The notes beneath the pieces were generated by a model. It searched no databases. It had not been told where the DNA came from and worked only from the letters and a program-made list of their open reading frames with translations. Of a stretch of DNA of 64,000 nucleotides, positions 14,098-20,313 are shown in pieces. Positions within the stretch are counted from its first letter, which is position 1; each line of letters opens with the position of its first letter. The position numbers and the translations under genes are program-made. Source of the stretch: an uncultured Fidelibacterota bacterium (GTDB lineage: Bacteria; Fidelibacterota; Marinisomatia; Marinisomatales; UBA1611); assembly GCA_902562835.1 (NCBI GenBank), contig CACEUX010000004.1, positions 1-64,000 on the forward strand, written 5' to 3'.

Positions 14098-14979
14098 ATG
14101 TTTATAAATTTAGCCTTATCAAATGAACAAAGATTATTGTTTTATAAATTTTTCTTAGCAATTTTATCTGTTTATGGAGTTTATGCTGATCAAAGCTCCT
14201 ATAAGTGGACCGAGTCTTTACCTGATCCATGGACTATATCTAATGAACAGTTAGATCTTTACCTACCTCATTTTCATAAGATGCATCCTGATTATCATGA
14301 CCGACTTATTGCACTTAATTTATGGAGATTAGGTACACCTTATGGAATATTTTGTCTTGGTGAAGAGCAAGGCGTTGATAAAGATCCAATTATTCGTTTT
14401 GATACTTCAGATTGCACTGTACATGTATTAACTACTATAGCCTTAGCTGAAAGTTATACATTCCAGAATGCGAAAGATGCTATGATCAAAATTCATTATA
14501 AGCCAGATCAATATGGTACAATTACTCCCACTTTTAGATCAAGGTGGCACTTTACTTCAGATCGTTTATTAAATCATCCTAATACAGTTAATATTACATC
14601 TTTGATCTCATCTCAAGAAGATCTCGAAAATATCAAAATTGAATTAAATAAAAAGCAGAATGGTTCACAATTCTTAAATTTAGATTGGACATCATTTGAA
14701 TCAATAGACTACATTCCCATTCAAAAATTAAGTGATGATATTTTAATAAAGCTCCCTTCTATCTGTGGTGCAGCATTTGTTAAGAAAGATTATTTCAGAA
14801 ATGGTATAGTTATTGCTCACGAAGGTTATTTGATAAATAGTAGAGATCTAATTCATGCCTCATCAATTGAAAAAAAAACAGTCAAGGTTGATTTAATATC
14901 ATATTTAAAGGAAGACAAAAACACATTTCGTTTTGACGGAATTATGTTTTTTGATATCAAAGAAGCTCAAAAAAAATGA
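14098..14979 (+). CDS. DUF1460-like (N-acetylmuramoyl-L-alanine amidase-like) protein
   Basis: 293 aa; LIALNLWRLGTPYGIFCLGEEQGVDKDPIIRFDTSDCTVHVLTTIALAES; family call from motif memory. Confidence 0.6.
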   Translation: MFINLALSNEQRLLFYKFFLAILSVYGVYADQSSYKWTESLPDPWTISNEQLDLYLPHFHKMHPDYHDRLIALNLWRLGTPYGIFCLGEEQGVDKDPIIRFDTSDCTVHVLTTIALAESYTFQNAKDAMIKIHYKPDQYGTITPTFRSRWHFTSDRLLNHPNTVNITSLISSQEDLENIKIELNKKQNGSQFLNLDWTSFESIDYIPIQKLSDDILIKLPSICGAAFVKKDYFRNGIVIAHEGYLINSRDLIHASSIEKKTVKVDLISYLKEDKNTFRFDGIMFFDIKEAQKK

Positions 14980-17309
14980 ATACAAATTTATCAAAAGTAG
15001 AATCTGGTTTTTGCAAATCGAGTGATCTAAAACTCCAAAAAACAAATATACCATATATAAAGGTTAGTAATTATCCTGATCTGGGTTTAATTACTTCTTT
15101 ACGATTTTTGGAATGGGTCTTCGAGAATCCAAAAGGTGTTATTAGCCTTCCAACTGGAAAGACGCCTGAATACTTTATTAAATGGACGCATTTTATTTTG
15201 AATAATTGGAATCATGAAAGAGTGATATCAATACGTTCTAAGTATGGTCTTACTTCACAAAATAAACCTGATCTATCAAAATTGCATTTTATTCAAATAG
15301 ATGAGTTTTATCCCTTAGAACCATCTCAACACAATAGTTTTTCAAATTATGTAAACAAGTATTACCTAGAAGGTTTCAATATTTCTAAAAAGAATTCACT
15401 ATTGATTAATGCTGATGAAATACCAATTTATAATAATCAACACTGGAGTGAGATATTTCCTAATGGCCTAATAGATCTTGGCTTGCGTCATTCAGTTGCG
15501 TCAACGGATTTACAGAAAAAGCAACAAGAATCAATCTATCTTATTGACCAATGGTGTAATGATTATGAAAAAAAGATAAGAGAATTAGGAGGAATAGGGT
15601 TTTTCCTAGGAGGAATTGGTCCTGACGGCCATATCGCTTTCAATATAAGGGGTTCAGACCACAATTCTACCACAAGATTAATGGAGACGAATTTTGAGAC
15701 TCAGGCTGCTGCCGCTAGTGATTTGGGTGGGATTGAGATCAGTAAGAACCGATTAGTGATTACCATTGGACTTGGAACCATTACCCATAACAATCAGGCA
15801 ATAGCAATAATTATTGCCGCTGGTGAGTCTAAAGCCCCAATTGTTAAGATGTCTCTTGAAAGTGATCAGGATGTTAAATATCCAGCAACAGTACTTCAAA
15901 AGCTTGAAAATAGTAGATTTTATATTACGGAAGGTGCTTCAAAAACTCTAAATGATTCACAGAATGATTATTGGGAAAACAGTCCGTGGGACTTGGAAAA
16001 AAAACAAAGAGCTCTTTTACAGCTTGCAAAGCGAAAAAGTATATATGGTAAAAAACTTACCCTTGCTGACCTTTCAAATGATATTATTTGTAAAAATATA
16101 CCAGGTCTTGATGAACAAACTGTATCTGATATAATTAAAAGTGTAGATCAAAAAGTACAGTTAGGTATTAAAACGGAAACTGATCAGGTTTATTATCATA
16201 CAGGTCCCCATCATGATGATATCATGCTAGGGATGATGCCCCAAATAATCCATTTAATCCGTGAGCCAAGTAATAAACACTTTTTTACAAATATGACATC
16301 TGGATTCACATCTGTTACAAATGGGTTCTTAAAAGGAATAATAGAAAACACTTTGTCATTTTTTGATCGCGGGAGAATTGAGATGACAGATTATCCAGAT
16401 TTCTTTAATAGTGGATACTTATCGAAGTGGGATAAAGATGTATATCATTTTTTAGATAAGATTGCAAACAATGATTCTAATGGTCAATCAAGAGGTCTTT
16501 CCCATAGACTTGTTCGTTCGATCGTAGAAATTTACCGGATCAAGGATAAAGATCAATTGAGTAATAAATTAAACCATATTTACAGTGAGCTCGATGGCTA
16601 CTATGATGGTGAAAAGAACTCTCCTGAAATTCAAAGATTAAAAGGAATGGTCCGTGAGTTTGAAGAAGAATTGGTTTGGGCAAATTATGGAGTAAGAGTT
16701 CGTGATGTACATCATTTACGACTTGGTTTTTATAAGGGTGATATTTTCACTGAGCAGCCACAAAAAGCGAGAGATGTGACTCCAGTTTTGAATCAGTTAA
16801 GAGAGATAAATCCTACTGTTATAACCTTAGCTATGGACCCAGAGGGCAGTGGTCCAGATACACATTATAAGGTTCTCCAAACTATAGCGGAGGCGGTGCG
16901 TTTATGGAATGAAGAATCGGATCTTTCTAACTTGAAGATATGGGGATATAGAAATGTATGGTACCGATTTGATTTAGCTGAAGCGGATATAATTGTGCCA
17001 GTAACATTGAATTCAATGGCAATTTTAGATTCTACTTTTATGAATTGCTATCTTAGTCAGAAGGATGCTTCGTTCCCTAGCTATCAACATGATGGCCCTT
17101 TTTGTGAGCTTTCTCAAAAAATTTGGGTCGATCAACATCGCGATCTTCAACTACTCCTTGGTAGAGATTATTGGTATCGTAATGAAAACCCTCATTTAAG
17201 GGCTGTCCATGGAGCAGTTTATTTAAGGGAAATGAACGTAGACGATTTCTTGAGCTTTGCTAGGAGTATTGAGAACGTAATAGAGGGTTCTGAAGAATTA
17301 GGCATGTAG
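14976..17309 (+). CDS. nagB: Glucosamine-6-phosphate deaminase fused to C-terminal PIG-L/LmbE-like deacetylase domain
   Basis: 777 aa; IQIDEFYPL and GGIGPDGHIAFN (NagB active-site motifs), then HTGPHHDDIMLGMMP (PIG-L metal motif) and AMDPEGSGPDTHY. Confidence 0.85.
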   Translation: MNTNLSKVESGFCKSSDLKLQKTNIPYIKVSNYPDLGLITSLRFLEWVFENPKGVISLPTGKTPEYFIKWTHFILNNWNHERVISIRSKYGLTSQNKPDLSKLHFIQIDEFYPLEPSQHNSFSNYVNKYYLEGFNISKKNSLLINADEIPIYNNQHWSEIFPNGLIDLGLRHSVASTDLQKKQQESIYLIDQWCNDYEKKIRELGGIGFFLGGIGPDGHIAFNIRGSDHNSTTRLMETNFETQAAAASDLGGIEISKNRLVITIGLGTITHNNQAIAIIIAAGESKAPIVKMSLESDQDVKYPATVLQKLENSRFYITEGASKTLNDSQNDYWENSPWDLEKKQRALLQLAKRKSIYGKKLTLADLSNDIICKNIPGLDEQTVSDIIKSVDQKVQLGIKTETDQVYYHTGPHHDDIMLGMMPQIIHLIREPSNKHFFTNMTSGFTSVTNGFLKGIIENTLSFFDRGRIEMTDYPDFFNSGYLSKWDKDVYHFLDKIANNDSNGQSRGLSHRLVRSIVEIYRIKDKDQLSNKLNHIYSELDGYYDGEKNSPEIQRLKGMVREFEEELVWANYGVRVRDVHHLRLGFYKGDIFTEQPQKARDVTPVLNQLREINPTVITLAMDPEGSGPDTHYKVLQTIAEAVRLWNEESDLSNLKIWGYRNVWYRFDLAEADIIVPVTLNSMAILDSTFMNCYLSQKDASFPSYQHDGPFCELSQKIWVDQHRDLQLLLGRDYWYRNENPHLRAVHGAVYLREMNVDDFLSFARSIENVIEGSEELGM

Positions 17310-17770: not shown

Positions 17771-18751
17771 TTATTGAATACCAGATCTCAGAATATCATG
17801 AATGTGTACAATACCATCAGGTTTTTTTAGATCTGAATTAGAATAAACAAATAAACTTGTTATAGAATGCTTTTCCATTAGCTCAAGCGCAGATAAGGCC
17901 AGGATATCAGAAGTGACCCACTTAGGACCTTTTGACATGATGAATGAAGCTTTTTCATTGAGAAGACTATGACCAACCTTCTCTAGCCCTCTTCTAATAT
18001 CACCATCTGTTATTATCCCAACCAATTCATCTTTTTCATTTAATACACCGGTCATCCCTAAGCCCTTATCTGAAATAGTGAATAGCGCATCTTTGATACT
18101 ATGCTCACTGGATATAAATGGGATCTTATCACCTGAGTGAACTAGTTGATCTAGCGTTAGTAAAAGACGTTTTCCCAACACCCCTCCTGGGTGAAGTTCT
18201 GCAAAATCTTCTTGGTTAAACCCTCTGAGTTCTAAAAGTGCCACTGCTAATGCATCTCCCATTGCTAGTGTTGCTGTTGTACTTGCTGTGGGGGCTAGAT
18301 CCAAAGTACATGCTTCCTTTTCAACAGATGTATCCAAATATATATCAGCGCTAGAAGCTAAGCTGGATCCTCGTCTACCTATCATCCCAACAACTTTTAC
18401 ATTTTTCTTTTTTATTGCTGGGATTATCTGAATTAATTCCATGGTTTCACCACTATTACTTACAATTAATAATACATCTTCTTCAGTTATCATCCCCAGG
18501 TCACCGTGAATAGCCTCGCCAGGGTGAACAAAATGAGAGGGTGTGCCTGTTGAGGCCATTGTAGAGGCTATCTTTTGAGATATCAAACCAGATTTACCCA
18601 TACCTGATACGATAAGGCGACCCCTGCATTGCAATATTGTATTTATTGCAGATTCAAAATTTTTGTCAATACGGTCTGCAATTAAAGAAACAGCATCAGC
18701 CTCGATCTTGATAACTCCTTTAGCTATAGTTTTAATATCCGAGTTTTTCAT
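17771..18751 (-). CDS. kdsD: D-arabinose-5-phosphate isomerase (KpsF/GutQ family; SIS + CBS domains)
   Basis: 326 aa; SGMGKSGLISQKIASTMASTGTPSHFVHPGEAIHGDLGMI, SNSGET, LAPTASTTATLAMGDALAV, LHPGGVLGKRLL, IITDGDIRRGLE. Confidence 0.93.
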   Translation of the reverse strand: MKNSDIKTIAKGVIKIEADAVSLIADRIDKNFESAINTILQCRGRLIVSGMGKSGLISQKIASTMASTGTPSHFVHPGEAIHGDLGMITEEDVLLIVSNSGETMELIQIIPAIKKKNVKVVGMIGRRGSSLASSADIYLDTSVEKEACTLDLAPTASTTATLAMGDALAVALLELRGFNQEDFAELHPGGVLGKRLLLTLDQLVHSGDKIPFISSEHSIKDALFTISDKGLGMTGVLNEKDELVGIITDGDIRRGLEKVGHSLLNEKASFIMSKGPKWVTSDILALSALELMEKHSITSLFVYSNSDLKKPDGIVHIHDILRSGIQ

Positions 18752-18817
18752 TGTATAAAATTTAATATCATTCGCATTCAGCCCTGTTTAGTTTATGTCT
18801 AGTTAAATACTAAATAA

Positions 18818-19303
18818 ATGAAAAAAATATTACCTATAATCATTCTAAAATTCTCATTATTTGGAGCGACCATAAATGTCGGTGAATCTGCGCCTAATTT
18901 TTCACTGGTAGACCAAGATGGGAACTTGCATCAACTCGATGACTACAAGGGCAATAACTTAGTTATTTATTTTTTCCCTAAGGCTGATACTCCTGGATGA
19001 ATAAGACAGGCATGCGGGTTCCGTGATGAATACAAGAATTTTGAAAAATATAATATATCGATACTTGGTATTAGTTATGATGACCAAAGCATTTTGAGAT
19101 CATTCAAAAAAAAATATGACCTTAATTTCAATTTATTATCTGATTCGAAAAGGGAAATGGGTAAGGCCTTTGGTGTTAATAAATATTATTTTTTCCCATC
19201 AAGAAAAACTTTTCTCATTAGTAAGGAAGGAGTATTAATTCATATCTTTGATGATGTTGATTTGCATACCCATCCTCAAGATATACTAAGATTTTTTAAC
19301 TAA
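18818..19303 (+). CDS. Peroxiredoxin (BCP/PrxQ-like), predicted selenoprotein with in-frame TGA (Sec61)
   Basis: ORF track splits it into 18818..19000 and 19094..19303, but both are in the same frame. Continuous reading: ...VIYFFPKADTPG-U-IRQACGFRDEYKNFEKYNISILGISYDDQSILRSFKKKYDLNFNLLSDSKREMGKAFGVNKYYFFPSRKTFLISKEGVLIHIFDDVDLHTHPQDILRFFN. TGA at 18998-19000 replaces the peroxidatic Cys of the PKADTPGC(T)xxACGFRD motif. Confidence 0.88.
19011..19028 (+). promoter_or_regulatory. Putative bacterial SECIS hairpin for the peroxiredoxin
   Basis: CATGCGG-GTT-CCGTGATG, 7 bp with one bulged G and one G-U, GU-containing apical loop 18-20 nt after the UGA. Confidence 0.55.
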
Positions 19304-19322
19304 ACACATTGGGTGAATACTT

Positions 19323-19547
19323 ATGAAAGTAATGATTGAATACTGTAGCCATTGAAACTACCTTCCTAGAGCCTCCAGTTTGGAGGCTAGCTTAAAACAG
19401 ACTTTCCAAGGAATAAATGTTTCGCTTATTTCAAGCGGTGGTGGTGTATTTGAAGTCACCCTAAATGGAGAGCTGATATTTTCAAAAAAAGCTTTAAATC
19501 GTTTTCCTGAGCAGGGTGAAATTGAGCAACTAATAGGACAGAGTTAA
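19323..19547 (+). CDS. SelW/Rdx-family protein, predicted selenoprotein with CxxU motif (Sec11); missed by the ORF track
   Basis: MKVMIEYCSH-U-NYLPRASSLEASLKQTFQGINVSLISSGGGVFEVTLNGELIFSKKALNRFPEQGEIEQLIGQS; TGA at 19353-19355; conserved Rdx features (EYCxxU, YLPRA, GGVFEV, LIFSKK, RFPE). Confidence 0.9.
19370..19388 (+). promoter_or_regulatory. Putative bacterial SECIS hairpin for the SelW/Rdx-like gene
   Basis: AGCCTCC-AGTTT-GGAGGCT: perfect 7-bp stem, loop containing GU about 23 nt after the UGA. Confidence 0.7.
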
Positions 19548-19554
19548 TTCAATA

Positions 19555-20313
19555 TTGATCACTGAAATTAAACATAACACTAATACCTATTATATTAATA
19601 CCCATGAAGGGGTGGACCTTTCAATTAGAAATGATTTCTTAGGTAGTGGTCCCATATTTTATGGTGCAGAAAAACCTCAGGTGAACGCTCTAAGAACTGG
19701 CGATTTTATTGGCGATATAAAAAAGGGGGGGAGCTGCAATGTCCCTATTGTCACTTTAGATATACACTGTACGGGAACCCATACAGAATCAATTGCACAC
19801 GTAATAGATTCAGAAGTAAAAATATCAGATGTTTGCCCCAAGGGTATGATTCCAGCATGGTTGGCTTCAGTAGAATTGCAGGAAGCAAATAGGACAAATG
19901 AATCTTATCATTGTGATATGAAGAATGACCTGGTGATCACAAAAGATGAACTACAGAAAAATACACTGGAACCTAATAATGCATTGATCATTAGAACGTT
20001 GCCGAATAATGTGTCTAAGAAAAAAAGGGATTACAATGTAGAACCTGCACCCTTCTTTACAAATGATGCCATTGATTATATTAATGCTTTAGGTGTGCAA
20101 CATCTTTTAGTGGATATTCCCTCTATTGATAAAGCAAATGATGGAGGGCAATTGGAAAATCATAAAAGATTCTTTAAACAAGGAAAGACCATTTCTGAAC
20201 TACTCTTTATTCCAGATAATGTAACAGATGGATTTGGCTTTTTGCAGATACAAATTCCAAACTGGGGTCTGGATGCAGCACCTAGTCGACCCATCTTTTA
20301 CTCAACTGCATAA
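19555..20313 (+). CDS. Cyclase family protein (kynurenine formamidase-like)
   Basis: 252 aa, TTG start 7 nt after the SelW-like stop; LDIHCTGTHTESIAHV metal-binding HxGTHx motif; LLVDIPSIDKANDGGQLENHKRFF. Confidence 0.75.
   Translation: MITEIKHNTNTYYINTHEGVDLSIRNDFLGSGPIFYGAEKPQVNALRTGDFIGDIKKGGSCNVPIVTLDIHCTGTHTESIAHVIDSEVKISDVCPKGMIPAWLASVELQEANRTNESYHCDMKNDLVITKDELQKNTLEPNNALIIRTLPNNVSKKKRDYNVEPAPFFTNDAIDYINALGVQHLLVDIPSIDKANDGGQLENHKRFFKQGKTISELLFIPDNVTDGFGFLQIQIPNWGLDAAPSRPIFYSTA

Follow-up and report, generated by a model that had tools for sequence, protein, structure and literature searches.

Small SelW-like selenoproteins were recognised in 2005 as the most abundant family of the Sargasso Sea selenoproteome, and glutathione binding has been noted for the family (PMC1088965). 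A GOS survey of 2008 found ten reads, from closely related organisms, with neighbouring peroxiredoxin and SelW selenoprotein genes, and asked that a functional link between the two be analysed further (PMC2398784). Known bacterial SelW-like proteins (PF10262; NF041051 SelTWH_Campy; SELENOW-like, PMC9312934, PMC13188914) belong to the same family as the one described here and share its CxxU motif, its one Sec and its downstream SECIS element; we see no essential difference, and the present case adds a new Neomarinimicrobiota sequence. The adjacent peroxiredoxin shares with known Sec PrxQ/BCP proteins (COG1225/PF00578, TxxU; PMC1088965) the peroxidatic Sec and a Cys five residues on, but differs in a hydrophobic leader that suggests export. 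The GOS pair likewise consists of a TxxU peroxiredoxin beside a CxxU SelW in a small related marine group (PMC2398784). Its reads had no assigned organism, whereas here the pair sits in a Neomarinimicrobiota family; the two were matched by description, the reads themselves not being compared.

A SelW-like selenoprotein and its pairing with a Sec peroxiredoxin in marine bacteria are thus already known in kind and arrangement. The novelty implied by an earlier, sequence-only reading of this DNA does not survive these publications of 2005 and 2008, and the advance is modest because genes of this type, and this arrangement of them, had been described. What we add is a probable host for the pair at family level, its distribution among genomes, SECIS covariation and the peroxiredoxin leader. 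Two selenoproteins encoded side by side in an abundant, uncultured marine phylum escape ordinary gene calling, the GOS pair gains a likely host family, and the peroxiredoxin becomes a concrete partner candidate for the function of bacterial SelW-like proteins.

Within the window (the whole stretch of 64,000 nucleotides analysed), we put at about 95% the probability that Table 1 describes a genuine Neomarinimicrobiota gene for a SelW-like (Rdx-family) selenoprotein, directly downstream of a probably cotranscribed Sec PrxQ-type peroxiredoxin and with its UGA read as Sec.

Table 1. Features of the SelW-like locus, in window coordinates.
Feature	Position	Strand	Basis or detail
PrxQ/BCP-type peroxiredoxin, 161 aa, UGA at codon 61, hydrophobic N-terminal leader	18818..19303	+	AhpC-TSA match, relatives; TAA stop at 19301-19303
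Peroxiredoxin Sec codon TGA	18998..19000	+	Ordinary ORF ends at 19000
Probable SECIS hairpin of peroxiredoxin (CATGCGG GTT CCGTGATG region)	19012..19030	+	Sec forms fold; Cys forms without it
SelW-like/Rdx selenoprotein gene, CxxU	19323..19547	+	TGA=U translation, Pfam Rdx and NF041051 matches, UGA kept in relatives; ATG at 19323, TAA at 19545-19547
SelW-like Sec codon TGA, codon 11, second CxxU active-site residue	19353..19355	+	Aligns with TGA or Cys codons of homologues
Bacterial SECIS hairpin of SelW-like gene, AGCCTCC-AGTTT-GGAGGCT	19370..19388	+	Fold, covariation, synonymous-codon control
Cyclase-family (PF04199) gene downstream	19555..20313	+	Starts 8 nt after SelW-like stop

The sequence-only reading had proposed a 74-aa Rdx/SelW protein obtained by reading through the TGA at codon 11 in EYCSHU, missed by the ORF list and 19 nt past the peroxiredoxin stop, and each of these points held. 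Table-11 calling returned no ordinary ORF of at least 60 aa across the gene, and the spacer from the peroxiredoxin TAA to the SelW-like ATG is 19 nt. Translated with TGA as U, the 74-aa product (MKVMIEYCSHUNYLPRASSLEASLKQTFQGINVSLISSGGGVFEVTLNGELIFSKKALNRFPEQGEIEQLIGQS) matched Pfam Rdx PF10262 (E=1.7e-23, 83.1 bits, cut-off 22.6), the NCBIfam model NF041051 'SelT/SelW/SelH family (seleno)protein' (E=3.9e-30, 103.9 bits, cut-off 88) and TIGR02174 (69.4 bits, cut-off 34.2). Its N-terminal motif is C8-S-H-U11, with Cys8 and U/C11 conserved in homologues, and the solved structures among its sequence relatives are bacterial Rdx proteins and mammalian SelW (2fa8, 2obk, 2npb). Proteins of this CxxU type are small thiol/selenol oxidoreductases whose substrate is unsettled. 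The order of the SelW-like and PF04199 genes is kept in a congener (L041), and the two are possibly cotranscribed.

The peroxiredoxin is hidden in a similar way, table-11 calling splitting it into ORFs at 18818-19000 and 19094-19303. It matched AhpC-TSA PF00578 at 2.5e-35 and the PRK09437 family below the model cut-off, and its nearest solved structures in the PDB are BCP-type peroxiredoxins. In its motif TPGUIRQAC the U takes the peroxidatic position and a Cys follows five residues on; Sec61 is expected to be the attacking residue and Cys66 the resolving one. Codon 61 is TGA in all linked relatives and Cys in others. With TPGU in one gene and CxxU in the other, the claim that both neighbours place a TGA at a redox residue proved correct. 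A hydrophobic signal-like leader begins the peroxiredoxin in all family members inspected (MKKILPIIILKFSLFGA... in the window), from which we infer that the protein is exported and acts in the envelope; the SelW-like protein has no such leader.

Homologues support the reading of codon 11 as a redox residue. The SelW-like protein was found in 70 of 101 genomes (the source genome and its relatives), each match that covers codon 11 containing exactly one TGA, and the one-TGA pattern also holds across 245 genomes of the phylum, codon 11 being TGA in every relative there whose match reaches it. An apparent double-Sec SelW in genome G225 was rejected, its second TGA being the terminal stop. Among 74 loci from named genomes of many phyla (Desulfobacterota, KSB1, Calditrichota, Gemmatimonadetes, Chloroflexi, Firmicutes and others), codon 11 is TGA in nearly all, and four homologues (L085, L097, L101, L109) have Cys there, so that the proposed search for Cys or U at this position returned both. 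We weighed whether the TGA could be a true stop or a sequencing error, the gene being a pseudogene or a 10-residue ORF. Such a reading would accommodate the lack of an ORF under the ordinary genetic code and the missing SelA and SelB of the draft, but the same TGA recurs in more than 100 independent genomes with the downstream frame intact, Cys replaces it in distant homologues, and the hairpin behind it is under selection. The comparative data refute this reading, and we consider it highly improbable.

Two SelW-like genes in this wider set have TGA at both CxxU positions, giving UxxU: one in a Desulfobulbaceae MAG (L087:3001-3222, CALZHP010000031.1; Y-U-VQ-U-N) and one in PAHQ01000031.1 (L092:3001-3228; Y-U-GV-U-N). 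In both, one hairpin of the usual kind follows the second TGA. Two reviews, of 2022 and 2026, list no SelW-like form other than CxxU, with its one Sec. Sequencing error is less likely here because the form was seen in two unrelated MAGs, and these genes may represent a new double-Sec variant.

The first base of the SelW-like hairpin lies 15 nt past the TGA, and its loop AGTTT carries G in second place (position 19378). The hairpin had been called SECIS-like from the sequence; as a fold of the window sequence alone it is not significant (z -1.1; 25 of 200 shuffles equally good), and it is the comparison across relatives, by covariation and a synonymous-codon control, that upholds it. Of 89 distinct Sec sequences, 69 have every one of the five inner stem positions paired and 86 keep the loop G; in 300 synonymous-codon shuffles the number with a complete inner stem averaged 12.3 and never exceeded 22. 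In an alignment of 19 sequences picked to spread over phyla, the covariation score was 0.498 (0.212 when shuffled; 0 of 500 shuffles reached it), 95.5% of cells were paired, and four pairs showed two-sided changes; the signal was lost on sliding the partner by 1-3 columns. Minimum free energies (MFE) were lower than those of synonymous shuffles in Sec forms (mean z -1.57 for 88 Rdx and -1.55 for 24 peroxiredoxins) but not in the small sets of Cys forms (-0.34 for 4 Rdx, 0.02 for 6 peroxiredoxins). The hairpin itself is weak or absent in Cys homologues, the Rdx contrast being with four Cys forms. Taken across relatives, this pattern indicates selection on the hairpin. A scan of 18700-19700 against Rfam gave no match, as would be expected from the diversity of bacterial SECIS elements.

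The Sec machinery, which the sequence-only reading had proposed to check, was found in part in the organism's draft genome, and the selA and selB genes missing there were found in close relatives. The draft genome (1.83 Mb, 97 contigs, 77.7% complete) carries a tRNA-Sec (64.6 bits, anticodon TCA (UCA)), and its SelD is itself a selenoprotein, with an in-frame TGA in SHGSGUACK (G000:C5:72141-73067, minus strand, locus L152). Searches of the 78%-complete draft gave neither SelA nor SelB; its SelB candidates scored under the family cut-off and are consistent with other GTPases of translation. Among the 101 relatives, SelA occurs in 75 and SelB in 72, the closest congener included. In G001, a congener with a 96% complete genome whose SelW-like protein and peroxiredoxin are 96% and 98% identical to those of the window, selB and selA sit side by side between mutS and an MFS gene, in a block that, with names other than selA and selB as we read them from the sequences, presumably runs mutS-selB-selA-MFS-rplS-trmD-rimM-rpsP-ffh. 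The draft has no counterpart of this 13-kb block except a 42-base GTPase match. The organism must possess the ribosomal protein and SRP genes of the block, so their absence marks an assembly gap in the draft. Across the 101 genomes, Rdx and SelA occur together in 62, Rdx only in 8, SelA only in 13 and neither in 18 (Fisher p 2e-6, a test that ignores relatedness and completeness). In the reduced-genome family f15 (about 0.7-1.0 Mb), the three genes are all absent among the members listed.

These results also bear on whether UGA has been reassigned in this lineage to an ordinary amino acid such as Trp or Gly. In-frame UGA in at least three genes (peroxiredoxin, SelW-like and SelD) would agree with reassignment, but the in-frame TGAs fall at redox-active positions only, the neighbouring genes of the window are long ordinary ORFs under table 11, a tRNA-Sec with anticodon TCA is present, and close relatives have SelA and SelB. 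We rate reassignment as even less probable than a true stop. On the sequence evidence, insertion of Sec would be the only reading that fits the UGA: SelB and tRNA-Sec would decode codon 11, aided by the hairpin 15-33 nt downstream. At locus L005 the tRNA-Sec gene (L005:1501-1596) lies directly beside a nickel superoxide dismutase gene (L005:1631-2101, minus strand; Sod_Ni 4.7e-30, HCQVPCGIYDD).

The pair is narrower in distribution than the SelW-like gene. A Sec peroxiredoxin lies directly upstream in 19 of the 26 genomes of the window's family with a full SelW-like gene, usually at a spacing of about 20-50 nt (368 nt in G013), and most of the family's genera have the pair. The same-family loci L042-L045, L047 and L048 are assigned to Candidatus Neomarinimicrobiota / Marinimicrobia. 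Seven family genomes lack the pair, among them the five genus g10 genomes that carry a full SelW-like gene; in G022 the cytochrome and SelW-like neighbours are retained and the peroxiredoxin is gone. Elsewhere in the order, the best peroxiredoxin match was never on the contig of the SelW-like gene, which occurs much more widely than the pair and elsewhere is found on its own.

The two genes of the window probably share one mRNA. The SelW-like product would be a small thioredoxin-fold oxidoreductase forming a Cys8-Sec11 selenenylsulfide in thiol/peroxide chemistry, and the neighbouring peroxiredoxin probably contributes to the same defence against oxidants in the envelope, without being its direct partner. 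A closer tie can be imagined, in which the pair forms a two-Sec peroxide defence module and the CxxU site of the SelW-like protein reduces the oxidised, exported seleno-peroxiredoxin, directly or via a carrier across the membrane. Adjacency with a short spacer in most family genera and in the GOS reads would suit such a dedicated Sec-Sec relay, as would the expected thioredoxin fold of both redox proteins, and with it the bacterial SelW family would gain a defined partner for the first time. Against it stand the many SelW-like genes without a pair, including G022 and genus g10, which keep Rdx with no linked peroxiredoxin. Direct electron transfer is doubtful because the leader is on the peroxiredoxin only, and we regard the relay as unlikely. 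A shared operon for oxidative stress or selenium status, serving two compartments, is a more careful reading than recycling.

Some minor features of these genomes were also observed. Further upstream in the window, a 777-aa ORF (14976-17309) has a sub-threshold glucosamine-6-phosphate isomerase match in its N-terminal half (5.3e-5) and an HHD/DPEGSGPDTHYK-like stretch with no Pfam match in its C-terminal half. Two relatives have a second, N-terminally truncated SelW-like copy corresponding to the C-terminal half (G013:C39:116531-116620 and G022:C28:126435-126524). These copies are 80% identical over 30 residues, lie some 3 kb downstream from the full gene and seem to result from a partial duplication that flanks an 820-aa gene.
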